Part shown: piece after piece, positions 27,992 to 47,572 of the stretch | Position numbering within the stretch: the stretch's first letter is position 1 | Layout of the letters: every line of letters starts with the position of its first letter | Assembly (NCBI RefSeq): GCF_003111685.1 | Contig: NZ_CP022189.1 | Span: 2,372,001 to 2,436,000, forward strand | From: Alloyangia pacifica | GTDB taxonomy: Bacteria > Pseudomonadota > Alphaproteobacteria > Rhodobacterales > Rhodobacteraceae | DNA: 64,000 bases | Direction: 5' to 3' | Program-made: the position numbers and the translations under genes | Notes under the pieces: generated by a model | Databases searched by the model: none | Told to the model about the DNA's origin: nothing | Seen by the model: only the letters and a program-made list of their open reading frames with translations

Positions 27992-28049
27992 TGGTACCCG
28001 CGGCCGGACTCGAACCGGCACGCCATGCGGCTAGGGATTTTAAGTCCCC
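27992..28049 (-). repeat. Left attachment site: 58-bp copy of the tRNA-Leu(UAA) 3' part
   Basis: This stretch is identical base for base to 47489-47546, which is the 3' portion of the intact tRNA-Leu gene from the anticodon stem to CCA. Identity stops abruptly on both sides. It is a truncated tRNA remnant and the left boundary (att site) of the integrated element. Confidence 0.97.
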
Positions 28050-28133
28050 AAAGCTGCCCGAATGTCACCGCGCCAGATTGAGGAATCCCCAGCCTATACC
28101 CTGCAAATAAAGGATAAATGCCAGTTAAGCGCT

Positions 28134-28163
28134 AGTTGACTGTCAGTCGGATGTCAGTCAACT
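28134..28163. promoter_or_regulatory. Inverted repeat upstream of the integrase gene
   Basis: AGTTGACTG (28134-28142) and CAGTCAACT (28155-28163) are a perfect 9-bp inverted repeat with a 12-base spacer. The spacer itself repeats GTCAG. The site lies about 45 bases before the integrase start and could be the operator or promoter region for int, or an excisionase site. Confidence 0.5.
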
Positions 28164-28173
28164 ATCAGCTTGA

Positions 28174-28198
28174 ATGTCACCGCAGTGTCACCGCAGGA
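28174..28198. repeat. Left copy of terminal 25-bp repeat with tandem GTCACCGCA units
   Basis: A 25-bp stretch is identical to 47397-47421 at the right end of the element. It holds two GTCACCGCA units 11 bp apart (28176 and 28187). A further unit, GTCACCGC, lies at 28064-28071. Same-orientation repeats near both ends, phased at one helical turn, resemble arm-type integrase or excisionase binding sites. Confidence 0.7.
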
Positions 28199-28205
28199 AT
28201 CGACC

Positions 28206-29477
28206 ATGAAGACCGAAACCATTACAGCCCGCATCGGCGCCAAGACCTTCCGGGAAACCGAGCTGCCCGAGGGCTGCCGCGAGCTGGTCATCAAGGACTC
28301 GGACCTTACAGGCTATGTCCTGCGCCTGACGCGAGGCGCCGCCTCATACGTCTATCGCGGGCGTGTGGCCGGGTCCGGCCAGCGCCGCGCCGTCGTGCTC
28401 GGCGATGCCAAGCTGTTGCCCGCCTCTGAGGCCCGCAAGGCGGCAGAGCGGACCCGGGCACGGTTCCGGGCCGGTCATGATCCTGTCCTAGAGGCAGAGG
28501 CCGAGGCAGACCGCGCCGAGGCAGAGGCCGAGCTTGCCCGCATCGAGGCCGAGAGGAAGGCGGCAGAGGATGCCGCCGAGGCAGCCCGCAGGACGCCGCT
28601 CGGCGGCTTCCTCGACCTCTACCTTACCAAGTTCGAGGCAGGCCACCTGACCGACCAGAGGCGCACCCCGACGCCCGAGAGCGTGCGCTCTGAGAAGGTC
28701 ACCGCCGACCGGCTCAAGCGGATGCTCGGCGCGGATCTCGGCGTTGGTGACATCGACCTTGCCGCCTGCCGGAAGCTGCGGGCCGGACTCGGCGAGTTCG
28801 CAGGCACGACCCAGAAGAAAACCTATGGCCTGCTCGGGCGGGTGCTCGACGCCGCGCTTGATGAGGGTCTGATTGACGGCAACCCGGCGCGGCTGCTCAA
28901 GACCCCCAAGACCAGCATGAAGCGCGAGCGGTACTTGAGCCGCGAAGAGCTGCGGGCGGTCTGGGATGCCTCGCACAAGCTCGCCGAGTATGGACGCGGA
29001 ATCCGCATCCTGACCGCCTGCCCTGTCCGCGCCTCGCTGCTCAAGGTGATGAGCGGTTACACCGTCAAGGACGGCGCCTTTCACGTCCCTAGCGATGCCG
29101 AAGGCAACAAGAGCCGCGTTGCGTGGGTCATGCCGCTGACCGCCCTCGCGCTCGAACAGCTTGGCGATCCTGTGCAGCCGCCCCGGACCATGAATGACAG
29201 CACGTGCCAAGCCAAGCTGATGAAGCTGAGCGGCGTGACCGATTGGACGCCGCACGACCTGAGAAGAAGTTACGCAACCTTGCTCGGCGATGCCGCCCCG
29301 GACCTGAGCCGCGCCGACATCGACTCATACCTTTTGCACAAGCCGCACGGGCTCGAAGCGGTCTATTCACTGTCGCAGCGCACCGCCGCTCTGCGCACCG
29401 TGGCGGCTCGCTGGGATACCGTCCTGCGGGACATCCTGCGCGGCGCTGATGGCAATGTGGTGCCGCTGCATGGGTAA
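28206..29477 (+). CDS. int: Tyrosine recombinase/integrase
   Basis: 423 residues from the ATG at 28206, with AGGA upstream; an earlier TTG at 28170 would lie inside the terminal repeat. The N-terminal arm-binding domain (about 1-85) is followed by a long charged, alanine-rich linker of Glu-Ala repeats (about 90-145), a core-binding domain (about 150-230), and a catalytic domain. Visible catalytic residues are an early Arg in CPVRASLL, the H-x-x-R box HDLRRSYATLL and the nucleophile Tyr in AVYSLSQR. It should insert and excise the element at the tRNA-Leu site beside it. Confidence 0.93.
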   Translation: MKTETITARIGAKTFRETELPEGCRELVIKDSDLTGYVLRLTRGAASYVYRGRVAGSGQRRAVVLGDAKLLPASEARKAAERTRARFRAGHDPVLEAEAEADRAEAEAELARIEAERKAAEDAAEAARRTPLGGFLDLYLTKFEAGHLTDQRRTPTPESVRSEKVTADRLKRMLGADLGVGDIDLAACRKLRAGLGEFAGTTQKKTYGLLGRVLDAALDEGLIDGNPARLLKTPKTSMKRERYLSREELRAVWDASHKLAEYGRGIRILTACPVRASLLKVMSGYTVKDGAFHVPSDAEGNKSRVAWVMPLTALALEQLGDPVQPPRTMNDSTCQAKLMKLSGVTDWTPHDLRRSYATLLGDAAPDLSRADIDSYLLHKPHGLEAVYSLSQRTAALRTVAARWDTVLRDILRGADGNVVPLHG

Positions 29478-29853
29478 GCTGCCCGGGCCCGACAAGGACG
29501 CCCTACGGGCCGGAAATCCGGCCCTGTGGGCACGTGCCGTGGTGGCCGAGGCCTGCACCCAGCATCCCGAGTTGCGCGAGGCTCTGGCGATCCTCTACGC
29601 CGAGCAGCGCGATATCGGCGCCGAGGGCGACGGTATCGCCGCTCGGGCCGTTGCCGCCGATGCAGGCAAGACGGGCGGGCGTCCGGCCTCGCCGCTCTGG
29701 CCGCTCATCCTGCAGCTTGATGCATCTCGACCGGCGCACATCAAGGACAAGACGCACCGCGCGGTGCGGGTTCGTCGTGCCTTGCTGGCGATGGAACTTG
29801 ACGGGATTCCGTCCGCCTCGACCATTCGCCAAGGGCTCGGAAAAAGTATCTGA
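29470..29853 (+). CDS. Hypothetical protein overlapping integrase end
   Basis: 127 residues from the ATG at 29470, whose first codons overlap the integrase stop; an earlier start at 29449 lies within int. Composition is Ala-rich and mixed-charge, with a C-terminal part VRVRRALLAMELDGIPSASTIRQGLG that has a helix-turn-helix-like look (it could be a DNA-contact helix). No family is recognised. Coupling to int suggests a role in integration control. Confidence 0.6.
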   Translation: MGKLPGPDKDALRAGNPALWARAVVAEACTQHPELREALAILYAEQRDIGAEGDGIAARAVAADAGKTGGRPASPLWPLILQLDASRPAHIKDKTHRAVRVRRALLAMELDGIPSASTIRQGLGKSI

Positions 29854-29917
29854 CAGAAAGGCTCCTTACTGTCGCGAGGATGGCGCTAGGGTGATTCCAT
29901 CGAAAGGAGGAACACCC

Positions 29918-30166
29918 ATGACGCACCCGCCGCACAAGCTACTGACGGAAGACGAAGCCGCCGAATATCTCGACGACTGCGGCTATCCGATGCAGCCCTC
30001 GACCCTGCGGAATTACCGCAGCTCGAACCGTGGGCCGCACTACGTCCGCGCAGGACGCTCGCCGCGCTATCGCGTGGCTGACCTGCACAAATGGCTGACC
30101 GAGTTGCCCGGGCATGAGAACACGCTCGGCGAGCTAGAGCACAAGCTCGGTATCGCGCCAACTTAA
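29918..30166 (+). CDS. AlpA-like helix-turn-helix protein (candidate excisionase/activator)
   Basis: 82 residues from the ATG at 29918 with a perfect AAAGGAGG ribosome site. The fold is MerR/AlpA-like: LLTEDEAAEYLDDCG (helix 1-2), TLRNYRSSNRGPHYVRAG (recognition helix and wing), SPRYRVADLHKWL. Small proteins of this type act as excisionases (recombination directionality factors) or as satellite activators. It is encoded shortly downstream of int, in line with that role. Confidence 0.85.
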   Translation: MTHPPHKLLTEDEAAEYLDDCGYPMQPSTLRNYRSSNRGPHYVRAGRSPRYRVADLHKWLTELPGHENTLGELEHKLGIAPT

Positions 30167-30188
30167 CTACATCCCGACATCCTGAACT

Positions 30189-30210
30189 CCTTTGGGACAT
30201 GTCCCAAAGG
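30189..30210. promoter_or_regulatory. 22-bp perfect palindrome with core TTGGGACATGTCCCAA
   Basis: A complete palindrome stands between the AlpA-like gene and the next small gene. The inner 16 bp recur inside another 22-bp palindrome at 44285-44306 in the same element. It is not followed by a T-tract. It could be a dimeric repressor operator or a hairpin acting at the RNA level. Confidence 0.6.
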
Positions 30211-30277
30211 CACCGCCCCGAGCGTCCGCGCCGTTCGGGGCCGGGAAACTCATGCGCGGCAATCTGGAGGGACTGAC

Positions 30278-30472
30278 ATGCAACCCAACTTTGACGCACC
30301 CGTCATGAGCGAGGAAGACGCCGAGCGGGACGCCCTGATCGGCGATGCGCAGAGCGCGGCAGATACGCTCTGCACCACGCAAGAGGACATCGACACGCTG
30401 CACGCGCTGACCCTCGAAGCCCTGCAGAAAGCCCGCAACGGCGCTCAGATCACATCACCGGAAGAGGAATAA
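30278..30472 (+). CDS. Small acidic hypothetical protein
   Basis: 64 residues, with a GGAGGG ribosome site before the ATG at 30278. It is acidic and probably alpha-helical (for example SEEDAERDALIGDAQSAADT). It ends two bases before the next gene, so translation is coupled. No family is recognised. Confidence 0.6.
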   Translation: MQPNFDAPVMSEEDAERDALIGDAQSAADTLCTTQEDIDTLHALTLEALQKARNGAQITSPEEE

Positions 30473-30474
30473 CC

Positions 30475-31518
30475 ATGCACGAACACCCGAAGATCAAAGC
30501 TGCCCTAGCGCAGGTAGACGCTTACCATGCCGAGCTGCGGCAGAGAGCGCCGCACGCCGTCGGTATCCCGGATTATGTCCGCTCTTTCAGCCTCAACACC
30601 AATGAGGCGCTTGTGGCTTCCTATGACCCACGGGCAGGCCGCAGGTTCAAAGCTCTGGTACATGTCCTGCCCTCAGGCGACGTCATGACGTCAGCCGGGA
30701 TCAGCCTGAGCGTCAAGCGCAAGCAGGTGCAATGCTCGCGTAGGGCAACGAAGCACGGACCCAAGAAGCTCGGCAACATCGAAGTTATGACGGCGGAAGA
30801 TCTGGCAAGACACATCAAGAGGGCGCTTTCGTCAGTGCTGCACATTGCTTTCAGAGGGACATCTGAGGCAAAGCCCGCCCGTCTCAGCGGCGAGGCCGTC
30901 GAAGTCATGCGCGAGGCGCTGCAACTCAGGGATGACCTTCGCGATCTCAGTTTTGTCATGTGCGCTCTGCTCGATATCGACGCGCTCGGAAAGTCGAAGT
31001 CCGCGAGTGCACGCCTTGCCATGCTCGACAAGGCCAAGGCTAATTTCAACGCGATGTTCGGCGGTTCCTTGGATAGTGCCTTGGCCCTTCTGCACGGAAG
31101 GCCGAACGATGCCGAGATTGCAGCGGGCCGCGAAAGAGAAAGGGCGAAGAATATCGAGCGCCTGAGGAAGTCGGTTGCAGATGCGGAGTCTCTGCGCCTG
31201 CCTTTCGGGAGCATCTATGACTATGCCACCTGCACCGACCTTGCGGAAAGTCTCTGGTGGGCGAGAGACACGCCAGAGGTTGAAGCGCTCTGGCAGGATT
31301 TTGGGCAGGCCATCCAAGATGTTCCGACCGGGGAATGTTCTGGTGGCCTGCACTACGAAGACCTGCAGGAAGTCGAGTATTCGGAAGAGTGGCCGGAAAT
31401 GCGGGCCGCATATGACCGCCATATTCCCCGCCTGATCAATTCCGGACTCGCCGAGATCCGCGCCGTGCTCGACGAACTCGGCGCCGCGCCCGAGCTAGAG
31501 CCCGATCCGTTCTCATGA
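30475..31518 (+). CDS. Hypothetical protein of the mobile element
   Basis: 347 residues. The N-terminal half has mixed beta/alpha character (for example VASYDPRAGRRFKALVHVLPSG), the middle is helical with a hydrophobic patch (LSFVMCALLDIDAL), and the C-terminal part is acidic. No transmembrane segment and no recognised domain. It begins two bases after the preceding small gene and lies upstream of the primase gene, so it may belong to the replication module. Confidence 0.6.
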   Translation: MHEHPKIKAALAQVDAYHAELRQRAPHAVGIPDYVRSFSLNTNEALVASYDPRAGRRFKALVHVLPSGDVMTSAGISLSVKRKQVQCSRRATKHGPKKLGNIEVMTAEDLARHIKRALSSVLHIAFRGTSEAKPARLSGEAVEVMREALQLRDDLRDLSFVMCALLDIDALGKSKSASARLAMLDKAKANFNAMFGGSLDSALALLHGRPNDAEIAAGRERERAKNIERLRKSVADAESLRLPFGSIYDYATCTDLAESLWWARDTPEVEALWQDFGQAIQDVPTGECSGGLHYEDLQEVEYSEEWPEMRAAYDRHIPRLINSGLAEIRAVLDELGAAPELEPDPFS

Positions 31519-31753
31519 AGGCGAACGGGCGAGGCCGTCAGACCTCGCCCGCTTAGCAATGGACAGGCGAGCTGACGTCCAACCCTGCGGAAAGGATATG
31601 CCGACTAAGCGACAATTGCACCCCCCGAAACTGGCACGACCCGAGCAGGGGACTCCGCTCGGGCCGTATAGATGCAATCTGATGGACTACTGCTTGCATG
31701 AGGCCTCTACATCATGCCGCAAGCGGTGGTCCTGACGCAAGAGGAAGCCACTG
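31519..31753 (+). other. Leader region upstream of the replication gene
   Basis: Non-coding stretch with two hairpins: CGGGCGAGG (31526-31534) with CCTCGCCCG (31543-31551), and CCCGAGC (31640-31646) with GCTCGGG (31657-31663). A 45-codon open frame (31598-31735) with three cysteines in its C-terminal half and a nearby AAAGGA could be a tiny protein, but its codon usage is not convincing. The hairpins could act as a terminator and as a structured leader for the replication gene. Confidence 0.5.
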
Positions 31754-34273
31754 ATGGCCAAGGCCACGCTTCAGACAGTCGAGTTTCAAGGCACCCTGCA
31801 GACCAGCGAGAACGCCCCTAGAGGCACATGGGGCGCCGTCCGGATAAACGGCGCCGCCCACACCGCCCGACAGGACAAGGCGGGCGGTTCGGGATATTCG
31901 CCCGTCAGGTTCAAGGGCAATTACCGCCGAAACGAGAAAGGAGTCGAGCGCTCGGCGGCAGTGTTCGATGTCGAACAGCAGAAGGACGGGCGGCAGCCGC
32001 ATAGCCCGGACGTGATGGCAGCACGGCTCAACTGCCGATCTGTGCTTTACACGACCTTCCGGCACACGTCCGAGGCGCCGCGTTACCGCATCGCCCTGCC
32101 GTTCGCCGAGCTGGTGCAGATCTCGGATGTCGAGACCGACAAGGAGATGATGTTGATCCTCGCCGACCGGCTCGGGATCTCCGACGTGCTCGACACCGGC
32201 AAGACCGGATGCGGATCATTCTTCTATTCCCCTGCCTGCCCGGCTGAGCGCCTGAGCGAGGCGAGGACGTTGCATGTAGACGGCCCGCACCTCGATCCCT
32301 CATCCGCCTTAGAGGAAGCACAGGACCGCGTCAGGAAGCGCAGGGAGGCCGTTGCCGCCGTCCCGAAGGGCAAGGGCAGCAACAAGGCCGCGAACGCCCT
32401 GCGCGGCAAGCTCAAGCCGATTGACGAAATCCTGCCTCTGCTCGGCTATGAATGGCGCGGCGGGGATCGCTGGCTTTCGCCCTACTCGAAGAGCGGCAGT
32501 CCCGGCGTCGTGGTGCTGACCGGCGCCGACGGCATCCCGCGCATGTGCTCGCATCACCAGAATGACCCGCTCTGCCTCGACGTCGAAGTGTTCGGCACCC
32601 GTGCTCATGACGCGCTCGACCTTGTCGTGTTCGACCTTTACGGCGCAGAGATCGACATCGCCGAGGCGATGAAGGAACTCGGCAAGGGCATCCCCGAGCG
32701 CTACGCCGCGCCGACGCCCGCGACCATCCGGCGCGAGCTGGAAAAGCGCCGCGAGACGCTGGCTCCCGAGGTGATAGAGGAGGATTACGCGGGCGAGATC
32801 TTCACCCTCACCGACAGGTTCGGCGAGGCGCACGAACTGACCGAGCACGAGTCCGCCGAGCTGCTGCAGTTCTACCCCGACGGCCCGCCCGATGATCTCG
32901 ACACAATCGAGGCGCTGCTTGCGATCTTCATGGAAGAGCGCGAGAGCCAGACAGCGCAGCTCGCCGAGATCCCCGAGATCCCCGGCATGGTCGGCGAACT
33001 GGCGGCATGGGTTGCGGGACGCTCGCGGCGCATCCTGCCGCGCGAGGTATGCGTGTTCACGGCGCTGGCCGCGCTATCGGCTGGCGTGGCGAACCGCGCC
33101 GCCGTGGTCTGGCCGCAAGGACCGTCGGCGCTCAATCTCGACATCCTGCTCAGGATGGGCACCGGCACCGGCAAGGAAGAGCTGCGGGCGACCGTCTCGG
33201 CCCTCGCGACCAGAATGGGCGGCGCGACTCCGTTCGACAGGTTCGGCAGCAAGGAGGGCGGGCATCGCGAGATGCTGGAAAACCAGCATAGCGCCGTGGT
33301 GCTGATGATCGACGAATACGCGAAGATGCTGCTTGCCGTGGCCAGCGGGAAAGACCCGATCAGCAAGGCCATCCTCGATTGGGCCATGGCGGCTTTCGCG
33401 AACCCGTTCGGGACGCTGACCGCAACGCCGGTGAAGAACAAGCGCGACCAGCTCGGGCCGGTGGAGGGTCCGTGCCTTGCCGCCTTCGGCACCTGCGCGG
33501 AAGACCCTTCGGACGCGCTGGCCGTCTCGGACGTGGGCGGCGGATTCTTGAATCGCAAGATTTTCTTGTCCGGCCCCGAGGTGGCGCCGCTGAAGCCGGT
33601 ACGGCAGGCGCGTATCAAGGTGATACCGAAGGACGTGGAAGAGGGAGTCGCCCGTCTGGGGAGGCTCTTTGCGCCCCTGACGCGGATGCCTGGACTCAAC
33701 GTGGGAAGCGCCCTGCAGCCGGTTGAGGGATGCCCGCGCGAGGTGCTGCCGATCATCCCCGACGACGGCGCCCTCACGGCGCTGGAGCGCTGGCAGGACG
33801 TGGCCGAGGGACACACGCAAGACACGCGCGATCCCGACCGCGTCCTGTGGGCGCGAGCCATGCAGCACGTCGTTTCCGTGGCCGGGCTGATCGCGCTCGG
33901 CGAGCGGGCGACCGATCCACGGGAGACATTCGAGCCCGTCGAGATGCGGCAAGAGCACGTCGCGGCGGCAATGGCCGTGGTGCGCCGATCCATGCGCGAT
34001 CTCGCCGCGCTCGCCGAAACGAAGACGACCAGACCGGCGCACGGGCAGATCGACGCCAAGCGCGAGCTTCTGAAAGTCTTCCTTCGCCTCGCTCGGGGAG
34101 AATGGCTGAGCAGGGACGCGCTGCGGCGGAAGAGCAAAATCCTGAAAGGCCCTGAGCGTGAAGCCGCGCTGCTCGACATGGAAGCGGAGGGCACGATTGA
34201 GAGCCGCGAGCGCCGCACGGGCAAGGGCGCGGGCCGTCCCGTGACTGAATACCGGAAGTCTTGGCGCGGGTGA
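31754..34273 (+). CDS. Primase/helicase-type replication protein (DUF3987-like)
   Basis: 839 residues. The middle part (about 405-640) is an ATPase domain: RMGTGTGKEELRATVSALA carries a Walker A-like GTGTGKE near 470, and VVLMIDEYAKMLLAV an acidic Walker B. This matches the DUF3987 helicase-like domain of phage and plasmid replication proteins. The N-terminal 350 residues would hold the DNA-recognition/primase part; I did not find clear Toprim catalytic residues. The C-terminal region looks like a winged helix (RDALRRKSKILKGPEREAALLDMEAEGTIESRER). It should start replication of the element at the adjacent non-coding region. Confidence 0.75.
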   Translation: MAKATLQTVEFQGTLQTSENAPRGTWGAVRINGAAHTARQDKAGGSGYSPVRFKGNYRRNEKGVERSAAVFDVEQQKDGRQPHSPDVMAARLNCRSVLYTTFRHTSEAPRYRIALPFAELVQISDVETDKEMMLILADRLGISDVLDTGKTGCGSFFYSPACPAERLSEARTLHVDGPHLDPSSALEEAQDRVRKRREAVAAVPKGKGSNKAANALRGKLKPIDEILPLLGYEWRGGDRWLSPYSKSGSPGVVVLTGADGIPRMCSHHQNDPLCLDVEVFGTRAHDALDLVVFDLYGAEIDIAEAMKELGKGIPERYAAPTPATIRRELEKRRETLAPEVIEEDYAGEIFTLTDRFGEAHELTEHESAELLQFYPDGPPDDLDTIEALLAIFMEERESQTAQLAEIPEIPGMVGELAAWVAGRSRRILPREVCVFTALAALSAGVANRAAVVWPQGPSALNLDILLRMGTGTGKEELRATVSALATRMGGATPFDRFGSKEGGHREMLENQHSAVVLMIDEYAKMLLAVASGKDPISKAILDWAMAAFANPFGTLTATPVKNKRDQLGPVEGPCLAAFGTCAEDPSDALAVSDVGGGFLNRKIFLSGPEVAPLKPVRQARIKVIPKDVEEGVARLGRLFAPLTRMPGLNVGSALQPVEGCPREVLPIIPDDGALTALERWQDVAEGHTQDTRDPDRVLWARAMQHVVSVAGLIALGERATDPRETFEPVEMRQEHVAAAMAVVRRSMRDLAALAETKTTRPAHGQIDAKRELLKVFLRLARGEWLSRDALRRKSKILKGPEREAALLDMEAEGTIESRERRTGKGAGRPVTEYRKSWRG

Positions 34274-34740
34274 TTGCGACCATTACCGGCCATTGCCGAC
34301 CGGATTCTGGCCTATGGCGCCGAGCTGGTGGCGTCAGATAGGCCGGAATCCGTGGTCGGTAATCCGGTATTAAGTCGGTAATTTGGTAGTGGTAAGTAGT
34401 AGTAATATATATATAAAACCCCCCTTACATACATTACCAACCATATAAACCAACCATCCCTGACCTATCCTGTTCTTGTGTGTGTTCTAGGGAGTCCGGT
34501 AATTGGTAGGTCGGTATTGTCTGAGACCAGCTCGGCGCCCTGTCCGGGCGTGCTCGTGTCCGAAACAGGGCACCCCGGCGAGCCGGTCGGCGCGGCTCGC
34601 TGGCATCCGAGATCCAGACACGATCAAGGGGGAACCGCCCCGGGCGTCCGAGGGGTTGAACATTTTGTTCAACCCCTTGCCCTCGACCCGACAGCACCAG
34701 CACCAGAGGCACGCACAGAGCGGCAAGCATCGCTCATTTG
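34274..34740. other. Candidate replication origin of the element
   Basis: The region after the replication gene has no open frame of merit. It contains CGGTAAT at 34357-34363, 34376-34382 and 34497-34503, the inverse ATTACCG at 34282-34288, degenerate copies (CGGTAT at 34365, ATTACC at 34433, CGGTATT at 34512) and an AT-rich tract of alternating TA (34401-34418) among otherwise GC-rich DNA. Iteron-like repeats beside an AT-rich element and a replication gene are the usual composition of an origin. Functional proof is lacking. Confidence 0.55.
34651..34677. repeat. 12-bp-stem inverted repeat next to the candidate origin
   Basis: AGGGGTTGAACA (34651-34662) and TGTTCAACCCCT (34666-34677) are perfect inverted repeats with a TTT loop. 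The stem is strong, but no T-tract follows it. It could be a protein-binding site, a single-strand initiation site or the end of a transcript. Confidence 0.7.
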
Positions 34741-34752
34741 AGCCATGCTCTA

Positions 34753-34772
34753 CCCTACCCTAGCCCGAACCC
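34753..34772 (-). other. G-quadruplex motif (minus strand)
   Basis: The plus strand has CCC at 34753-34755, 34758-34760, 34764-34766 and 34770-34772, so the minus strand has four GGG runs with loops of 3, 3 and 2 bases. This fits the standard G4 pattern. It lies between the origin-like region and the terminase-like gene. Several other CCT/CCCT-rich repeats follow (34800-34870). Confidence 0.6.
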
Positions 34773-35213: not shown

Positions 35214-35774
35214 ATGGCCAAATGTCCCACCAGGCCCCAGCCGCCCACCAAGACCTCGACCGACACTCCCCCCACATCCGAATCCGAGGACAAGCCTGCC
35301 GAGGTGCTGACGATCCACGACGGGGGTAAGCCCCCGCAATGGCCAGCGCCATCGATTCCGCTTAAGGGTCCAGCGCTGGAGCACTACGGCGAGCTCTGCA
35401 ATACCGTCTGGAACGCCAAGGGTGGGCTGTTGGTGACCGACCTCAAGCGAGCCGAAATCGCCGCCCGCGCCTATGGCGAAACCATCAGATGGGCCAACGT
35501 GAGCGAATTGCTTCTGAGCGAGGCCGCAAAGGCTGGCATCCGGCCGGACCTGCGCTCTTTGGCCGCCGCCTCTGATCAGCAAACTCGGGCGGCTCGCGCG
35601 TGGTCCTCTGCTACGAACCAGCTCGGACTCGAGGGGCGACATCTCGGCCTCGAACACAATAAGCGTCTACGCGCCAACGTCGGCACAGACCGTGGCGACT
35701 CGAAGTGGAAGAGCGTGTTACAGGCTGGCACCATCGCTCGATCTTGCGACGATGACGAATGGGATGACGTCTAA
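35214..35774 (+). CDS. Putative P27-like phage terminase small subunit
   Basis: 186 residues from the ATG at 35214; the upstream in-frame start lacks support. After a Pro/Thr/Ser-rich N-terminal 35 residues comes a helical core with the layout of P27-type small terminases: PLKGPALEHYGELCNTVW, then LLVTDLKRAEIAARAYGETIRW and, near the end, ARAWSSATNQLGLEGRH before an acidic tail (DDDEWDDV). Small terminases recognise packaging sites. No large terminase is in the element, which would fit a satellite that uses a helper phage. The family match is tentative. Confidence 0.4.
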   Translation: MAKCPTRPQPPTKTSTDTPPTSESEDKPAEVLTIHDGGKPPQWPAPSIPLKGPALEHYGELCNTVWNAKGGLLVTDLKRAEIAARAYGETIRWANVSELLLSEAAKAGIRPDLRSLAAASDQQTRAARAWSSATNQLGLEGRHLGLEHNKRLRANVGTDRGDSKWKSVLQAGTIARSCDDDEWDDV

Positions 35775-38291: not shown

Positions 38292-38294
38292 GAC

Positions 38295-40886: not shown

Positions 40887-41416
40887 TACGGCGTTGAGAG
40901 GCTGAAAACGGTGGAAGATGGGCTCTTGCCCATCTTTTACTTTTGGTTTTTCAAGCGCACAGACATAGCAATTTTCCATGCGTGCTAGCATAGTCTGGTC
41001 GCACATCTTTTCTGTTCCGCTTCTCTTCTGCCGACTTTCCTGAGCCGGTATCGTCGGTAGAGTGTGATGAATCCCGCCCGATCCCCTGTCAGGTTCCTGC
41101 GTCTGGATGCCGACCAGGTCACCAGCGTCCCCGTCTGCATCCTGCGTGCGCCAAGCCGACATTCAACGCCAGCATCGCCCGGATATTTCTTTGAGGACTG
41201 CTGTTCCATATGGCGTTGCGCCATAAGGCCCTGAGCCCCCGCTGGATAATTTGCAGCAGAGCCGCTCCACCAACACTAAAAGACTTCACGAATGGCACAC
41301 CAACCCAACCGAAAATCTGTCAACATCTACGTTGATAATCAATGACTTATCGACTCATGCCTTAATCTGTTCTACCCTTGTTCCACGCGCCGGGATTAGC
41401 CCGCGTGGCAATCAGG
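40887..41416. other. Non-coding region between res and the small-gene chain
   Basis: About 530 bases with no convincing gene; frames on both strands are short, rich in unusual codons and overlap. A short inverted repeat, ATGGCG-TTG-CGCCAT, lies near 41210-41225. From about 41270 the DNA is AT-rich with short dyads (TCAAC-ATCTAC-GTTGA and TTGAT-A-ATCAA near 41320-41342), which should be the promoter/operator of the following genes. Confidence 0.5.
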
Positions 41417-42127
41417 ATGGCGCACATGCTCCGAACCATTCCAAGTCCCTCAATCGCGATTGGAGGCGCACGGATCAGAGCTAGCCGCCGTCTTGCAAGC
41501 CAGATTGCCGCCGCTGGCCTATCCGCCGTTACAGCCCTCCGAGCTGACCAGAGCCGCCCCGATGAGCCTTTCGCCGCCATCGAAGAGGCTCACGAAATCC
41601 TCGATCATGTCCAAGACGCCATCCGGCAGACCCTCGCCCTAGCAGATGAGATGCGGGCCGTCGGCGCCTTGCTGCAGACCGGCGAATATAGCGACACCCA
41701 CACGCCCGCCCTGCGGGCCGCTGAGGCTGCCCGAGGCTATTGCGAGAGCATCCGGGCCGCTCAGCCCGATGCAGCCCTAGACAGCCTCGACGATGCCGCA
41801 CGGGACGCCCTAGAGCTTGCCCAAGCCCTCGCCGACGATTGCGAGGTTGCCACGGGCCGGGCCGAGAAGATTGACCAGCGAGCCCGGACCCTCGCCGCCC
41901 ATGGCCTCGCCCGCGCATCCGAGCGGCAGGCCTCCGAGCTGCTGCGCCGGTTCGCCCTGCCGCCCGAGCTGGCCGAAGTTGTCGATGGCTTAGAGCCTCG
42001 CGCCGCCGTCGAAGCCGCCCGGCAGTTCCAGCACAGCAAGGCCGCGACCCTCAGCGCCAGAAAGGCCAAGCGCCGGACCGCAGAGCGGCAGCTTGTCGTC
42101 GATGAGATTGCGGAGGCATGGGCATGA
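41417..42127 (+). CDS. Hypothetical alanine-rich coiled-coil protein
   Basis: 236 residues from the ATG at 41417; the ATG at 41426 is an alternative. Almost wholly alpha-helical, rich in Ala, Glu and Arg (for example FAAIEEAHEILDHVQDAIRQTLALADEMR), so a coiled coil or helical bundle is likely. A short N-terminal segment is hydrophobic but not a clear signal peptide. First gene of a chain of six overlapping genes. No family recognised. Confidence 0.6.
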   Translation: MAHMLRTIPSPSIAIGGARIRASRRLASQIAAAGLSAVTALRADQSRPDEPFAAIEEAHEILDHVQDAIRQTLALADEMRAVGALLQTGEYSDTHTPALRAAEAARGYCESIRAAQPDAALDSLDDAARDALELAQALADDCEVATGRAEKIDQRARTLAAHGLARASERQASELLRRFALPPELAEVVDGLEPRAAVEAARQFQHSKAATLSARKAKRRTAERQLVVDEIAEAWA

Positions 42128-42513
42128 GCGGCTTTGTCACCAACCCTGACGGCAGCGTGACCTTTCCGAGCGGAAAGACCCTCACGCGCAAGCAGATCGA
42201 AGAGCAGAACGAGCGCCGCGCGAATGATCGAACGCCAGTCACCCGCGCCGAACTCACCCGAAGCGAGAAAGCCCTGCTTGAGGCCATCGGCGAGGTGCTG
42301 AAAGCTGAAAGGCGTTTCACGGATGAATGCCTTGCGCCGCTCAGGGACGCCATCAAGGACTTGTCGGGCCGTGAGGTGCTGACCGGCGCCGCCCGGCTGA
42401 TCAGTGACGGCAACGCCAAGGCGCTCAGCTCGGCGATAGAGCCTGCCTTGCATCGCCGGGCGGTCATCCTCGACGGCACGCCGCCCGACTGGCTGCAGGG
42501 GATGTTCCAATGA
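42124..42513 (+). CDS. Hypothetical protein, small-gene chain
   Basis: 129 residues from the ATG at 42124, which overlaps the preceding stop as ATGA; an ATG at 42118 is also possible. It begins with a short beta-rich part (MSGFVTNPDGSVTFPSGKTLTRKQ) and continues helical. The stop overlaps the next start by four bases. No domain recognised. Confidence 0.6.
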   Translation: MSGFVTNPDGSVTFPSGKTLTRKQIEEQNERRANDRTPVTRAELTRSEKALLEAIGEVLKAERRFTDECLAPLRDAIKDLSGREVLTGAARLISDGNAKALSSAIEPALHRRAVILDGTPPDWLQGMFQ

Positions 42514-43208
42514 CCCGAGCGATTGCATCTCATGAAGTTCTGCACGCCCTCGCCGGGCTTGTCGTCGTCGAACTGCGCTATCCGAGCCGCTGGCCCGACG
42601 TGCGGGTCACGCTCGAAATCAACCCGAGTAGCGGCTCATGCCTGATCGAAGTTGGCGACGTGATCGACGATGCCGAAGACCGGCACATAAGCCAGCAAAC
42701 AGCCGCAATCGCGGCGCTCGGACCCTGCGCCGAGGCAGAGGACGCCATCAAGCTCATCCACGCCGAGGACTGGCAAGCGCTCGGCGAGGCGGGCGGCTTG
42801 TCGATTGCAGATGCCGAACTGCTGAGCCGGGCGCAGATGCCAGACCTGCCGCTTTTGGCCACAAGGACGATTGACGCCGTCCGAGCCCTCAAGCGAGGGC
42901 TAGGCGCGGCTCGCTGGCAGCGCTTGTGCCGAGCAGCTCGGGACATGTCTAACGACAAGCTCGGCAGCCTGACCGCCGAGGAACTGGCGCCCCGGCATCG
43001 CATCCAAGCGGCTATCCGGCAGGCCGGTGAAGAGCTTGCGCCCCTGCTCGGCGCCGCCTCACCCGGCAGAGTCCAGGTTGATAGGATCGTGGCCCGCACA
43101 GAGGCGCAGGCCGAGGCTCAGGCCATCAACGAAGCCAGAGCGCAACGGCAGGCCAAGACCGAGGCAGCACGGCAATCCCGACTTACCCGGAAGGAGTCCC
43201 CAAAATGA
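42510..43208 (+). CDS. Protein with M41-like HEVLH motif (possible zinc metallopeptidase domain)
   Basis: 232 residues. Near the N-terminus SHEVLHALAGLVVVEL has the HExxH zinc motif followed by an Ala/Leu helix as in the FtsH-type M41 peptidase family. About 55 residues later IAALGPCAEAEDAI resembles the M41 block that supplies the third ligand region (AAEE-like). No AAA ATPase or membrane segment is present; the C-terminal 50 residues are charged and Ala/Gln-rich. A degenerate or free-standing M41-like domain is plausible but unproven. Overlaps both neighbours by four bases. Confidence 0.6.
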   Translation: MTRAIASHEVLHALAGLVVVELRYPSRWPDVRVTLEINPSSGSCLIEVGDVIDDAEDRHISQQTAAIAALGPCAEAEDAIKLIHAEDWQALGEAGGLSIADAELLSRAQMPDLPLLATRTIDAVRALKRGLGAARWQRLCRAARDMSNDKLGSLTAEELAPRHRIQAAIRQAGEELAPLLGAASPGRVQVDRIVARTEAQAEAQAINEARAQRQAKTEAARQSRLTRKESPK

Positions 43209-43435
43209 CCCCGGATCACCGCATGATTATCGTCTCGCGCATGAGCGCCGGTTTCGACCTGCTCGGGCAGACGCTCAGGGCACAACAGAAGGAAGAGCCC
43301 GGCTCGGAGGCACACACGACGCTCGAAAATCAGGTGTTTGAAATCCTCTATTACATCGCCTGCGAGGGCGCCCGGGTCGGCATGGGTGTTGCCGAGATCC
43401 GCGATATGGGGATGGCGCGAGGTAGGCTGCAATGA
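43205..43435 (+). CDS. Small hypothetical protein, small-gene chain
   Basis: 76 residues, start ATG overlapping the previous gene's stop (ATGA). Probably a small helical protein (MIIVSRMSAGFDLLGQTLRAQ). No known family recognised. The next gene overlaps it by four bases. Confidence 0.55.
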   Translation: MTPDHRMIIVSRMSAGFDLLGQTLRAQQKEEPGSEAHTTLENQVFEILYYIACEGARVGMGVAEIRDMGMARGRLQ

Positions 43436-43626
43436 CCGATGCCGCGACCCTCGCCGAGCTGCGCCCGCGCCTCGAAGCGGTGATGTCGCGGCTGCCCGGC
43501 TATAGCGCAAAGCTGAAGATCGACCACACCGGCCTGCCCGTCGTCGAACTCTGGCGCGATGGATTCCGGGTTGCGATCCAGTCCGCCCGCCCATGGTTGA
43601 CCGAGATGGAAAGAGCCCATGCCTGA
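43432..43626 (+). CDS. Small hypothetical protein, small-gene chain
   Basis: 64 residues. A short alpha/beta protein (KLKIDHTGLPVVELWRDGFRVAIQ forms likely beta strands). Translation is coupled to both neighbours by overlap. No family recognised. Confidence 0.55.
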   Translation: MTDAATLAELRPRLEAVMSRLPGYSAKLKIDHTGLPVVELWRDGFRVAIQSARPWLTEMERAHA

Positions 43627-43867
43627 CCCGCTGAGCTACAACGCCCGCGCAATGCGCGAGCTGAGCGAGGCCATCGCACTCGCCCGCGAGGTCGCCCGAG
43701 ATGGCGCCGCCCTTCGGCAGGGCAGCGCCCGAGAGCGCGAGCTTGCCAAGATCGCCGCCGAGCTTGGCGCGATGATCCAGACGCTAGGCCGGGATCTCGA
43801 AATCAGCGCTGCCGACCTGCAGGAGATGATCCGGGCGCCTTTCGATCAGCGCGGGCGGCTGAACTAG
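43619..43867 (+). CDS. Small hypothetical helical protein, end of small-gene chain
   Basis: 82 residues, overlapping the preceding gene by eight bases. Strongly alpha-helical and amphipathic (AIALAREVARDGAALRQ), so oligomerisation is likely. Last gene of the six-gene chain. Its 3' end is overlapped by a possible minus-strand small gene. Confidence 0.55.
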   Translation: MPDPLSYNARAMRELSEAIALAREVARDGAALRQGSARERELAKIAAELGAMIQTLGRDLEISAADLQEMIRAPFDQRGRLN

Positions 43868-43994
43868 ATGCTGACGCTTCCCGTTGCTCGCGCCTTGCTG
43901 CTTGCGCCCGATAGACGGCGCCTAGCTTGGCCAATTCTTTCTCACGCTCAGTCGAAGCACGACGGGCGGAAATCATGGGACGTCTGCGCGGCAT
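43803..43994 (-). CDS. Possible small basic protein, minus strand
   Basis: 63 residues from the ATG at 43994, preceded by GAAAGGAAACGCC, a good ribosome site. The product is very basic (MPRRRPMISARRASTEREKEL, then many Arg/Ala/Ser), as for small nucleic-acid-binding proteins. It overlaps the last 65 bases of the plus-strand gene ending at 43867 and is divergent from the gene at 44059. The opposite-strand overlap lowers confidence. Confidence 0.4.
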   Translation of the reverse strand: MPRRRPMISARRASTEREKELAKLGAVYRAQAARREQREASASSSAARADRKAPGSSPAGRQR

Positions 43995-44058
43995 GGCGTT
44001 TCCTTTCTGGCTGGGGATAGCCCCGACCATAGCACAAGCAGGCAACGGAGGTCCGGCC

Positions 44059-44283
44059 ATGCGAACCGCACAAATCATCCCCATCGAACCATACTTGCCC
44101 GAGACCAAGCAGCGCGACCGGGAAGCCGCGCTGCTCTGGGAACGGTTCGAGGATCGTATTGAAGCCAGAGCTGCCGAGAGCTGGGATACGACCGGCGTCA
44201 GCGCCCGCACGCTCTGGGATATGAGTCAGCTCACGGACTGGCCGTCAATCGCCCGGCACTTCGGGTTAGACGGTTGGGCGTGA
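44059..44283 (+). CDS. Small hypothetical protein
   Basis: 74 residues from the ATG at 44059 with GGAGG upstream; a longer frame to a TTG at 43927 is less likely. It is Trp-rich (ALLWERFEDRIEARAAESWDT, TLWDMSQLTDWPSIARHFGLDGW). The final ASARHFGL-like helix could be a DNA-contact helix, but this is speculation. It converges with the XRE gene with a palindrome between them. Confidence 0.55.
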   Translation: MRTAQIIPIEPYLPETKQRDREAALLWERFEDRIEARAAESWDTTGVSARTLWDMSQLTDWPSIARHFGLDGWA

Positions 44284-44284
44284 G

Positions 44285-44306
44285 GAGTTGGGACATGTCC
44301 CAACTC
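44285..44306. promoter_or_regulatory. Second 22-bp perfect palindrome with core TTGGGACATGTCCCAA
   Basis: A full palindrome lies between the converging genes ending at 44283 and 44305, overlapping the XRE stop by two bases. Its 16-bp core equals that of the palindrome at 30189-30210. Between converging genes it could be a bidirectional RNA hairpin, or an operator; the repeated core makes a common binding protein likely. Confidence 0.6.
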
Positions 44307-44535
44307 ACTCGCCTACTCCCTCATCCCAGAAGATCGCCCGACCGTTCGGGCCGAAGTCGATGCCTGCCGCTCTGATCGCCTTAGCCAGAGCCCGCAACGT
44401 GCTGGCCCTCGCATCGCTGCCTTTCTCGACGAGCTGAACCGACGACCGGGCAACCCCGGCCCGCTCGGATAGGTCCGCGAGCGTCCAGCCTAGGACCGCT
44501 CGCGCTGCTCGCACCTGTGCTGCCGTCAGTATCAT
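44305..44535 (-). CDS. XRE-family transcriptional regulator
   Basis: 76 residues from the ATG at 44535, preceded by AAAGGACAG. A helix-turn-helix of the Cro/C1 type covers most of the protein: LTAAQVRAARAVLGWTLADLSERAGVARSSVQLVEKG. It is divergent from the 374-residue HTH gene and probably represses it, or both, through the repeats in the 95-base gap. Similar arrangements control lysogeny-like switches in mobile elements. Confidence 0.85.
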   Translation of the reverse strand: MILTAAQVRAARAVLGWTLADLSERAGVARSSVQLVEKGSDARASTLRALAKAIRAAGIDFGPNGRAIFWDEGVGE

Positions 44536-44550
44536 TTTCTGTCCTTTCGG

Positions 44551-44587
44551 TATTGCGTACTGATTATGCGCAACCATATACTGATTA
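44551..44587. promoter_or_regulatory. Operator-like repeats between the divergent regulator genes
   Basis: TACTGATTA occurs at 44558-44566 and again at 44579-44587, 21 bp apart (two helical turns). TTGCG (44553-44557) and CGCAA (44569-44573) form an inverted repeat around the first copy. The position in the divergent promoter region suggests binding sites for the XRE regulator or the HTH protein. Confidence 0.65.
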
Positions 44588-44630
44588 CACAGCACACACA
44601 ACCGATGCAGAATCATCGAGAGGACAGAAT

Positions 44631-45755
44631 ATGACGACCACACCCCAACTGCCCGAGCAGCCTGCCGACCTCGACCGCATCCGCGCCGACATCCGGAAGG
44701 CAGCTCAGGGTGTCGAGACCGCATCGGGCGGCACCCGCAAGGCATGGCTGAGGCTGGCTGCAGAGCTTTCCGAAGCGCGGAAGCATTTCAACGAAGAGGG
44801 CGGACTCGCGAAGTGGCTGAAGGATCACAAGCTCAATGATCTGCCTGGCCTCAAGACCGCGTCGGATACCTCGAAATTGCTTTGGATGCACGATCATCCC
44901 GGCGCCGTCGGTCTGGTGAAATGCACCGATGCCGCCAAGCCTGACTCGATCTTTCGAGCTTATAGCCGCTTGGTCGCCAAGGAAGCCAAGCGCCTTCACA
45001 AGGAAGCGCCGCGCAAGGATGCCGTCGCCGAGCTGATGGCGGATCTCGACATGACCGCCGAGGAAGCAGGCGCGGCCTATGACAGCGCCGCCCGGAAGGC
45101 CAAGGACGCGAACGACAAGAAGGCACAGAAGGACGCGCGGAAGCCGCCCGAGGCTTTCGACCTCGCCGACCTCGAAACCGATGCGCTCGAACTGCTCGCC
45201 GCCGAGATCGCGGCAGAGCTGCGGACCCGCCGTGAGCAGATCGGCAAGGAGCTTGTCGCGTTCCCGGCGCCCGAGCCCGAACCTGAGGCCGAGGAAGAGT
45301 CCCCGCTGCTCGACCGCCTTTGGGATGCCGTGAATCGGCACGGGCTGAACCCTACCAGTATCAACGCGCGGACGCATATTGCCGAGGATATGGTAAACGA
45401 TCACCTCATGGGGACCGCCCCTATCGGCGCGGCTCACGCGCGGCTCTACGAGAAGATGATCGCAAAGCTGCCCGAGCTTCCCGAGGAAGAGCCCGAGGCG
45501 GAGATCCAGACCGAACCCGAGATCCAGACCGAGGAGACGGCGGGCGATTTCGACAAGTTGCGGCCTGTGATCAAGACCGCCAAGCAGACGCTCAAACTGT
45601 CGAACGCCGCCCTTGGCAAGATCGTCGGAATCTCGCCTTCGCTCTGCGGGCACCACATGACCGGCGAGCGCACGCCGACTCCCGAGACACAGGCACGCTA
45701 CGTGGCTTGGCTCGCCGACGTGAAGGCAGAGCTGGCGGGCGAGTTCGGCGCATGA
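44631..45755 (+). CDS. HTH-containing hypothetical regulator/partition-like protein
   Basis: 374 residues from the ATG at 44631 with GAGAGGACAG upstream. The N-terminal half is helical and charged (GLAKWLKDHKLNDLPGLKTASDTSKLLW recalls DUF3102-type regions), the middle has acidic Pro-Glu linkers including the repeat EIQTEPEIQTEE near 290, and the C-terminal 60 residues hold a helix-turn-helix (LSNAALGKIVGISPSLCGHHMTG). It could be a transcriptional regulator or an element maintenance protein; I do not assign more. The stop overlaps the next start. Confidence 0.7.
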   Translation: MTTTPQLPEQPADLDRIRADIRKAAQGVETASGGTRKAWLRLAAELSEARKHFNEEGGLAKWLKDHKLNDLPGLKTASDTSKLLWMHDHPGAVGLVKCTDAAKPDSIFRAYSRLVAKEAKRLHKEAPRKDAVAELMADLDMTAEEAGAAYDSAARKAKDANDKKAQKDARKPPEAFDLADLETDALELLAAEIAAELRTRREQIGKELVAFPAPEPEPEAEEESPLLDRLWDAVNRHGLNPTSINARTHIAEDMVNDHLMGTAPIGAAHARLYEKMIAKLPELPEEEPEAEIQTEPEIQTEETAGDFDKLRPVIKTAKQTLKLSNAALGKIVGISPSLCGHHMTGERTPTPETQARYVAWLADVKAELAGEFGA

Positions 45756-46531
45756 CGTCGCCCATGTCAGAAGCGACGGCCCGCGCGACGATCTCGCGCG
45801 GGACCGCCGGACGGCTGATGGCCGAGCTGCGGCACACGCCGGAACTCACACCAGATCGGCTGAAACAGCTCATCAATCCGAGGTTCTTCCCGCGCAACCA
45901 AAAGGCCCTCAAGAGGTCCGCAGAGCGGGTCCGCAGGCATCCCGGCGCCGTCCGGGTTGCCGTCACCAGCGCCCCCGGCCTTGTCGTCGTGGCGCGGCGG
46001 CACTTCGTCACCACGGGCAGCTCTTACCATGAGCCCGGCGTGGTCCGGACCATGCCCGCCGCACTCTATGAGCATGTGACGTTCGCCCCCTCATCCGCAG
46101 ACCTCAGGATGCTTGACCTGCACATACAGAAGCACGCTATAGCCCGCTGGGTTGAACGCGGCGGCTCGCCCGATCCTCGCGATCTCGGCGTGAGCCTCGC
46201 CGACCTCGACGCCGCCGCGCTGCACATCCTGAGCGCCGATCTGCGCGGTTATCTGTTCGGGCCATTGGTCGGCGACAGCTCGGGACATTACGCCGCCTTC
46301 GGCGTCCCCGATGCTCGGGCGGGAACATGGGTTGTCGTGCCCGGCCTTCCTGAGGGAACTTCCCAGATCGACCAGCGCGAGCGCGACCTTATCGCCGTGA
46401 CCTATCTTGGCGAATCCGAACTGTCGGAAGAGCGGCAGACCTACCGCGAGCACATGCTCGCCCATGGCATCCGCGCGACCGTCCAGCGCTGGCCTGACCT
46501 GTTCTCACCCGAGGCACAAGACCGGCATTGA
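45752..46531 (+). CDS. Hypothetical protein coupled to the HTH gene
   Basis: 259 residues, start ATGA overlapping the upstream stop. Mixed alpha/beta protein with a central basic, histidine-containing region (LHIQKHAIARWVERGGSPD) and no membrane segment or known motif. Composition matches the rest of the element. Function unknown; operon with the preceding HTH gene. Confidence 0.6.
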   Translation: MTSPMSEATARATISRGTAGRLMAELRHTPELTPDRLKQLINPRFFPRNQKALKRSAERVRRHPGAVRVAVTSAPGLVVVARRHFVTTGSSYHEPGVVRTMPAALYEHVTFAPSSADLRMLDLHIQKHAIARWVERGGSPDPRDLGVSLADLDAAALHILSADLRGYLFGPLVGDSSGHYAAFGVPDARAGTWVVVPGLPEGTSQIDQRERDLIAVTYLGESELSEERQTYREHMLAHGIRATVQRWPDLFSPEAQDRH

Positions 46532-46666
46532 AACGCCCGGTGACCTCATGCCACCGGGCGCAAGCCAAAGTACCGGGCGGACTTGGGCGGAACGCCCGGC
46601 AGCCCGATCCTAGCACGATCCTCGACCTTTAGGCCACGATCTCGACCCCCGGGCGGTCCCCGCCGG

Positions 46667-46694
46667 TTGACCTAACGTAAGTCCTTGCTATCGT
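46667..46694 (+). promoter_or_regulatory. Probable promoter upstream of the coiled-coil/HTH gene
   Basis: TTGACC (46667-46672) and TATCGT (46689-46694) with a 16-base spacer resemble a sigma-70-type promoter, about 50 bases before the start codon at 46747. The remaining 46532-46746 stretch holds repeated CCGGGCG words and no recognised gene. Confidence 0.5.
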
Positions 46695-46746
46695 TCCCTC
46701 GACCCCCTGCCCGTTTATCGTTTCGGGCATCCCTTCGGAGGACGTC

Positions 46747-47382
46747 ATGAAGCGCTTGGGTGATGACGAACTGAGAGATCTTCCCACGGAAGACCTGATA
46801 GCCATCGTGCGCCAGCTAGAGCGCGAGGTGAGGCTGGCCCGAGAGGCCGAGCAGGACGCACAGGCCGAGGTCAGGAAGATGCGAGCGGCAGCACAGAGCC
46901 GGGCAGACCTCGACCAGCGCAGCGCCGAGGCCGTCAGATCGCTCGCCGATGAGGCCGAGACTTGGCGCGATAAGTTCCTGACATGGGCCAAGCTCGACGA
47001 CATGCGGGCCGATGAGATCGGCATCCTGCGCGATACCCTCCGCCCGTTCTTGGAAGACGGCACCGCCGAAGAGACACGCCGGGACGCCATCAGCGCCGCC
47101 CTGATCGGCAAGAGCAACGCCGGGCGCCGCCCTGCCTTGACTGATGCCCATTGCGTCGAGCTGGCCCGCAGGCACGCTCAGGGCCAGTCTGTGAGGGCGC
47201 TTGCCAAGGCCTTCGGCGTCGGGCGTGCGACCATCGACCGTGCCCTTGCCCGAGGCCGGTCCTGCGCCCCGTCCCTGAGCGCGATGCAGAACGCCGGGCG
47301 CCTCGACAAGAAGATGGCCAAGCTGCAGCGCGAGACCCGGGCTAGTGCCAAGGTCTGGCGCAAGCGAGACGCCACGCGCTGA
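46747..47382 (+). CDS. Coiled-coil protein with C-terminal resolvase-type HTH
   Basis: 211 residues. The N-terminal 100 residues are a long charged coiled coil (LIAIVRQLEREVRLAREAEQ and following). The C-terminal part carries AGRRPALTDAHCVELARRH and QSVRALAKAFGVGRATIDRALARG, the helix-turn-helix found at the end of Hin-type serine recombinases. The catalytic serine recombinase domain is absent, so it is a DNA-binding protein rather than a recombinase. It lies next to the right end of the element and might help integration or replication control. Confidence 0.75.
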   Translation: MKRLGDDELRDLPTEDLIAIVRQLEREVRLAREAEQDAQAEVRKMRAAAQSRADLDQRSAEAVRSLADEAETWRDKFLTWAKLDDMRADEIGILRDTLRPFLEDGTAEETRRDAISAALIGKSNAGRRPALTDAHCVELARRHAQGQSVRALAKAFGVGRATIDRALARGRSCAPSLSAMQNAGRLDKKMAKLQRETRASAKVWRKRDATR

Positions 47383-47436
47383 GTCACCGCAACCTTATGT
47401 CACCGCAGTGTCACCGCAGGACGGCTTGTCACTGCA
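47383..47436. repeat. Right copy of terminal repeat with GTCACCGCA units
   Basis: GTCACCGCA is found at 47383-47391, 47399-47407 and 47410-47418, and a near copy GTCACTGCA at 47428-47436. The stretch 47397-47421 is identical to 28174-28198 at the left end. Same-direction placement near both att sites suggests arm-type sites for integrase or excisionase. Confidence 0.7.
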
Positions 47437-47488
47437 GACCGCCCGTATCCCCATGGGGATCAAATCCCGTAAATATTTGATTTTATTG

Positions 47489-47572
47489 TGGTACCCGCGG
47501 CCGGACTCGAACCGGCACGCCATGCGGCTAGGGATTTTAAGTCCCCTGTGTCTACCATTCCACCACGCGGGC
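47489..47572 (-). tRNA. tRNA-Leu(UAA)
   Basis: 84 bases including CCA. Acceptor strand GCCCGCG (5') pairs with CGCGGGT before A73 and CCA; the G1-U72 end pair is unusual. The anticodon stem GGGGA/TCCCT encloses a seven-base loop CTTAAAA with anticodon TAA (47537-47539 on the plus strand). The T arm reads GCCGG-TTCGAGT-CCGGC and there is a short variable arm with leucine-type features. Its 3' 58 bases are the right att repeat; the gene remains intact. Confidence 0.95.

Follow-up and report, generated by a model that had tools for sequence, protein, structure and literature searches.

What kind of mobile element occupies a tRNA-Leu(UAA) gene of Alloyangia pacifica (Rhodobacteraceae) is the question raised by a 64,000-nucleotide stretch of contig NZ_CP022189.1 (assembly GCF_003111685.1, positions 2,372,001 to 2,436,000), here called the window. 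A sequence-only reading had described in it an element of about 19.5 kb with the gene order of a phage satellite, comparable to the phage-inducible chromosomal islands (PICIs) of Gram-negative bacteria. The reading we favor, with moderate confidence, is a site-specific integrative element with Gram-negative PICI anatomy, probably packaged by a helper phage and carrying a type III restriction-modification (RM) system as cargo. "Satellite" is the likeliest description: the element most likely works like a PICI, without being filed as one, and its Gram-negative-PICI-like lineage is apparently undescribed. Literature searches, with subscription papers mostly outside them, found no report of a phage satellite of Rhodobacterales among the papers listed.

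An insertion in tRNA-Leu(UAA) and its gene order

The element is limited by an exact 58-bp repeat (100% identity; 27992-28049 and 47489-47546), which gives an insertion of 19,497 bp (47489 minus 27992). In the organism's own 5.17-Mb genome, a query that extended across the left copy matched the repeat block only at these two sites (E<=0.001). ARAGORN predicted a tRNA-Leu(UAA) at each end of the element, and the prediction at 27992-28077 is, by eye, a displaced 3' half fused to element DNA that lacks a canonical 5' half. The proposed insertion into tRNA-Leu(UAA) therefore holds with one correction: the real gene is the right copy (47489-47572), and the left copy is a displaced fragment.

Each of 20 same-genus genomes had a match to the tRNA region, and the flanks of 11 same-genus loci were compared. 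Two of the 11 have an empty site, in which the left flank (to 28049) joins the right flank (from 47489) directly, with flank identities of 79% and 89% and an overlap of 58 bp in L055, and of 74% and 80% with an overlap of 59 bp in L057. Together with the exact repeat, these empty sites bear out the proposed limits of the element. At the remaining 9 loci, the left-side match was limited to 58-67 bp of the tRNA end (in L059, the contig stops there). For 2 of these 9, 20 kb upstream was inspected; the left-flank genes of the window lay a few kb off, and the element proteins had no match in these stretches at E<=0.01.

The layout is near-unidirectional, with 19 of 20 open reading frames (ORFs) on the plus strand. 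All 20 were scanned against Pfam and 18 against PHROGs, from which the RM pair was left out. A supported family was found for 7 ORFs, while the other 13, including the protein encoded from position 35214 (hereafter 35214), showed no convincing family. Portal, capsid, large-terminase, lysis, and relaxase families gave no significant match in these scans, in agreement with the earlier statement that structural, portal, large-terminase, and conjugation genes were not recognized. The succession of tyrosine integrase, AlpA-like protein, and primase/helicase was likewise supported by Pfam and PHROGs (for the primase, by PHROGs only). The attachment features and the front module, in which HTH stands for helix-turn-helix, are as follows:

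27992-28049, minus strand: attachment repeat, displaced tRNA-Leu(UAA) 3' end (exact repeat and empty-site boundary)
28063-28195, plus strand: integrase-side arm, with TGTCACCGCA-type sites at 28063, 28175, and 28186, the last two forming a period-11 tandem
28206-29477, plus strand: tyrosine integrase (PF13356, 5.6e-8; phrog_1, 1.7e-18); ATG chosen as start, the frame opening with TTG at 28170
29449-29853, plus strand: orf29449, unassigned (no Pfam or PHROG family), kept beside the integrase gene in the Aliiruegeria element described below (43% identity, E 1.7e-18)
29918-30166, plus strand: AlpA/excisionase-type HTH protein (PF12728, 2.5e-6; phrog_66, 3.2e-6)
30278-31518, plus strand: two ORFs (30278-30472 and 30475-31518) with no significant Pfam or PHROG family
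31754-34273, plus strand: primase/helicase of 839 aa (phrog_3022 DNA primase, 2.8e-26; phrog_256, 5.4e-7; no Pfam family)
34281-34520, no strand assigned: origin-like region, with GGTAAT-type repeats in both orientations flanking AT-rich sequence (word count, base composition, and sequence)
35214-35774, plus strand: small protein proposed as a small terminase subunit (TerS), with 26% identity (E 3e-9) to Aliiruegeria L008:2220-2678; no family
47382-47436, plus strand: far arm, with TGTCACCGCA-type sites at 47382, 47398, 47409, and 47427, of which 47398/47409 form a period-11 tandem
47489-47572, minus strand: intact tRNA-Leu(UAA), including the second attachment repeat 47489-47546 (ARAGORN, repeat, empty site)

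The AlpA-type assignment was made via HTH_17 and phrog_66, not via the Phage_AlpA profile. Of the 14 GGTAAT/ATTACC words in the window, 5 fall within 261 bp immediately following the primase gene, a density not reached elsewhere, as any 261-bp stretch outside 34200-34600 has at most 2. The words flank an iteron-like AT-rich stretch with a guanine-plus-cytosine (GC) content of 36% at 34350-34449. By its sequence, this cluster is a candidate origin, as had been suggested, and it lies where Gram-negative PICIs have theirs, with ori downstream of pri in the accessible part of PMC10111431.

The attachment arms carry repeats of their own. With up to one mismatch allowed, the window contains 9 copies of TGTCACCGCA where 4.4 would be expected; 4 of 100 shuffles reach 9. 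Seven of these 9 sites sit in the two attachment flanks, all on the plus strand, and each side has a tandem of two copies at period 11 (28175/28186 and 47398/47409). Applied to 44.3 kb of host sequence, the same period-11 tandem test flagged four positions. These doubled, co-oriented 11-bp motifs in both arms are new here.

Relatives in Rhodobacteraceae and comparison with known satellites

A search for the same attachment and gene order in other Rhodobacteraceae had been proposed, and it yielded two relatives at tRNA-Leu genes. Among 390 genomes of the order, the integrase matched 3 at E<=1e-30, namely the genome that contains the window, that of Aliiruegeria lutimaris DSM 25294 (G570), and a third genome, G175. 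In the Aliiruegeria element, an integrase (38% identity), an orf29449 homolog (43%), and an AlpA homolog (41%) are followed by D5-type primase genes and, further on, by the 35214 homolog L008:2220-2678; nothing else in that genome matched 35214 at E<=1. The primases of the two elements did not match each other (tblastn, 1e-3). Beside the integrase lies a tRNA 3' fragment, Leu(CAA) by eye, where ARAGORN predicted no full tRNA; the far end is out of view because the contig breaks off within a transposase-like gene. Ahead of the integrase gene stands another doubled motif, also with period 11. The stretch between primase and 35214 homolog (L008:3470-4518) encodes a ProQ/FinO-family protein (PF04352, 2.1e-14) as well as a DNA methyltransferase of phage type (phrog_757, 3.8e-50).

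In G175, two exact 55-bp repeats lie 24.7 kb apart; the integrase gene adjoins one, and the other ends a tRNA-Leu(UAG). Between them are alpA and genes for a Toprim primase, an AAA protein, and a candidate defense set (L009:12320-19699), in which PDC-S19, a PLD helicase, a DUF1156 methylase, and DUF3780 were noted. A looser doubled motif (8 of 9 positions matching) precedes the integrase gene, and a similar pair at period 12 was seen by eye at the far end, where the script flagged none. Two relatives in this family, at tRNA-Leu genes and with the int-alpA-primase order kept around unrelated replication genes, are new here.

A scan of genome contigs with three integrases returned 18 loci, of which only the Aliiruegeria one (L012) was both close and syntenic. 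A profile of the three integrases matched 174 of 394 family genomes at E<=1e-12; in 20 wider integrase neighborhoods from those 174, neither 35214 nor P27 had a match at E<0.1, and one neighborhood (L105) has an Aliiruegeria-type primase. The window's primase was found in 1 of 295 family genomes at the strict cut-off of E<=1e-20, namely its own, and the orf29449 pair, searched in 394 genomes, matched only the window. These genome counts are limited by sampling, since G570, which has an orf29449 homolog, is absent from the latter listing. The primase matched only Listonella phage phiHSIC among phage records (two records; 27% over 168 residues) and one Rhodovastum plasmid among plasmids, and it had no match in the PDB by sequence.

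The likeness to Gram-negative PICIs is one of gene order and content. The available text of PMC6092414 characterizes these islands by a conserved order of integrase, master regulator, and replication genes, by near-unidirectional genes, and by the lack of structural or lytic genes. Further marks of a Gram-negative PICI are an attachment site that prophages never use, an optional terS homolog, and induction, packaging, and transfer through a helper phage, with packaging as the defining act. With such islands, for example EcCICFT073, the element has in common an integrase, an AlpA-type regulator, a primase, and then a putative origin, as well as the near-unidirectional layout and the lack of recognized structural or lytic genes. 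At 19,497 bp (14.8 kb without the RM pair), it is above the 12-15 kb given in PMC6092414 and within the 10-20 kb given in PMC10111431. In contrast to these islands, no helper was identified for it, and its host is outside the Enterobacteria and Pasteurellaceae treated in the part of PMC6092414 consulted.

Helper-embedded PICIs, as portrayed in the portion of PMC10111431 at hand, also have a doubled, co-oriented arm motif flanking the attachment core, on both sides of the phage attachment site attP. However, theirs has other letters, other spacing, and a period of 12 rather than 11, and they lie in a prophage late gene rather than in a tRNA gene. P4-like satellites, in the excerpt of PMC8628076, have integrase, AlpA, and primase-helicase in common with the element, but their psu, sid, delta, and epsilon families were unmatched in the ORFs scanned. 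Phage-inducible islands of the PICMI type (PMC10803314, compared by description in the part available) likewise live in marine-type hosts and, like the element, have no recognized capsid-remodeling genes; they are set apart as Vibrionaceae elements with reduced gene content. The own capsid-forming genes of the capsid-forming PICI (PMC11389934, a class taken here by its name from the part seen) were also unmatched.

Packaging and competing explanations

If the element works as a satellite, its integrase would insert the circular form into tRNA-Leu(UAA), restoring the tRNA, and probably binds the doubled sites of the two arms. Control of excision and of the rightward genes would probably fall to AlpA and the Cro/CI-type regulator near the right end. 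Once induced and excised, the circle may replicate from the repeats that follow the primase/helicase gene and would probably be packaged by a helper phage, which is suggested by the presence of replication genes where transfer and virion genes are unrecognized. The type III RM pair would be cargo guarding the host, and hence the element, against other phages. Should packaging be true, defense systems in these bacteria would gain a phage-borne route of spread.

The small-terminase call for 35214 is the only packaging evidence for the element, and the claim that this protein is a P27-like small terminase was not confirmed by any of the tests made. It matched no terminase in Pfam, PHROG, or NCBIfam, and nothing at E<=1 in 50,697 phage and 72,556 plasmid records; its Aliiruegeria homolog had neither a phage-record match nor a terminase family. 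Against a profile of nine P27 proteins from relatives, the 35214 pair gave a collinear alignment of 128 columns (E 0.0064, probability 5.9%). A second profile run with other settings gave 108 columns and a score of 19.7, which 2 of 200 column shuffles reached; the best of 26 single-protein window controls scored 18.9, and 35214 alone scored 17.6, below two unrelated controls. With a P27 hidden Markov model (HMM), 16 of 1000 shuffles reached the real score for 35214 and 179 of 1000 for the homolog, and 4 of 189 control proteins outscored 35214. As judged from sequence, then, the P27 resemblance appears near noise, with 1-2% of shuffles reaching the scores. PF05119 matched neither 35214 nor its own genome, while 10 of 61 genomes have a match, and a local P27 HMM gave no match to 35214 at E<=1. 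The AlphaFold model was unusable (predicted local distance difference test, pLDDT, 44.7; predicted template modeling score, pTM, 0.27), and a fold search with this failed model gave no match at E<=0.001. By sequence, the PDB returned nothing for the 35214 pair and nothing credible for P27. 35214 is not recognizable as a small terminase; the call is a lead, no more.

A profile of the 35214 pair, searched in 394 family genomes, matched 8 genomes at E<=0.01, the window's included. Eight other places were judged spurious (17-22 bits, inside frames of ~490-695 aa or frames with stops). Separately, two adjoining P27 small-terminase genes, ~150 bp apart by match positions, were seen at G005:C5:224626-225360 (L043, L052).

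Portal genes were matched at C2:557 kb and C1:1334 kb of the host genome, and phage or gene transfer agent (GTA) machinery is thus present elsewhere in it. Large-terminase profile matches lie at C1:1005 kb and C1:1332 kb, with a profile (phrog_2) that is unspecific and positive in 11 of 14 control genomes. By eye, the regions G000:C2:545-585, C1:996-1016, and C1:1325-1345 kb (L124-L127) include an HK97-like prophage, a Mu-like prophage, and a GTA cluster. Because the genome has such phage-type regions, the satellite idea is directly testable. Exact 15-base words shared with the element are in slight excess in L124 and L127, at 16 and 18 positions; a pair of host controls that overlap each other gave 7 and 6, and L125 and L126 gave 1 and 4.

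The empty site, module order, layout, origin-like cluster, doubled arm motifs, lack of recognizable virion and transfer genes, portal genes elsewhere in the genome, and the two relatives speak for a satellite, whereas the terminase candidate and the lack of a tie to a helper phage do not. Several further results weigh on the negative side as well. The element had no convincing protein in common with the phage-like stretches read (best E 0.002) and shared no exact word longer than 18 bp with them. In viral-contig scans, the integrase drew three weak matches, and for the primase, 35214, and orf29449 no relatives turned up. The G175 element lacks a 35214 homolog and may be composite, since transposase-like genes and a tRNA-Gly lie between its repeats. 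Finally, the doubled arm motif is no general mark of PICIs, because other PICIs are without it in the sections of PMC10111431 seen. An extended form of the satellite reading, which we put forward only tentatively, is a separate Rhodobacterales lineage with a tRNA-Leu-specific integrase clade, a conserved int-alpA front, wholesale swapping of replication modules, large defense systems as cargo, and a small terminase of its own, unrelated or strongly diverged (the 35214 family), that would redirect helper packaging; the integrases concerned sit at tRNA-Leu UAA, UAG, and (by eye) CAA genes and have doubled arm sites.

The main competitor, to which we give a substantial minority of our confidence, is an integrative genomic island that is not packaged: it would excise, and may replicate briefly, by its own integrase, AlpA, and primase, and move rarely by transformation, generalized transduction, or a GTA, with 35214 not a terminase. 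The absence of a confirmed packaging gene fits this account, as do the abundance of broad-type integrases in the family, the 20 wider neighborhoods without 35214 or P27 matches, and the GTA cluster (named by eye) in the genome. An island that never multiplies would not usually carry a dedicated primase/helicase and an origin-like region, however, and the Aliiruegeria element retains its 35214 homolog at the corresponding place. Decay of a prophage, with loss of the late genes and gain of an RM system, would explain the phage-type integrase, AlpA, primase, and repressor-type regulator; we consider it improbable, as neither Pfam nor PHROGs revealed virion-gene fragments in the ORFs scanned and a relative whose primase is unrelated shows the same order in its front module. 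Least probable of all, in our judgment, is a mobilizable element moved by a conjugative helper via an unrecognized origin of transfer. Such elements can be without a relaxase, but tests for integrative mobilizable or conjugative elements matched none of the 20 ORFs to a relaxase or mating family, origin-of-transfer sequences not being searched for.

Cargo and right end

Behind 35214, the element continues with the cargo and a right end of mostly unassigned genes:

36168-38291, plus strand: type III methyltransferase, Mod (PDLC03645, 3.1e-285, full length)
38295-40886, plus strand: type III restriction subunit, Res (PF04851, 8.5e-12; PDLC03653, 6.1e-9)
41378-44283, plus strand: seven small ORFs without a significant family
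44305-44535, minus strand: Cro/CI-type regulator, the only reversed gene (HTH_3, 3.9e-7); start inferred, the frame opening at 44745
44631-46531, plus strand: two unassigned ORFs, 44631-45755 (start inferred; weak HTH_31, 0.0046) and 45752-46531
46747-47382, plus strand: resolvase-type HTH protein (HTH_7, 2.1e-8)

The full type III RM system described earlier is borne out by the full-length Mod match and the two Res profiles. GC content per 2 kb is 0.53-0.59 over the RM genes, compared with 0.61-0.67 in the rest of the element, which would fit a later gain of this cargo.

Near its start, ORF 42510-43208, which has no family match, carries an HEVLH motif by eye, as in zinc peptidases. ORF 44517 had no phage match. 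ORF 45752-46531 has a single plasmid relative (30%), which an Alloyangia pacifica plasmid carries beside a hypothetical gene of 13.6 kb; no integrase is annotated there within 15 kb.

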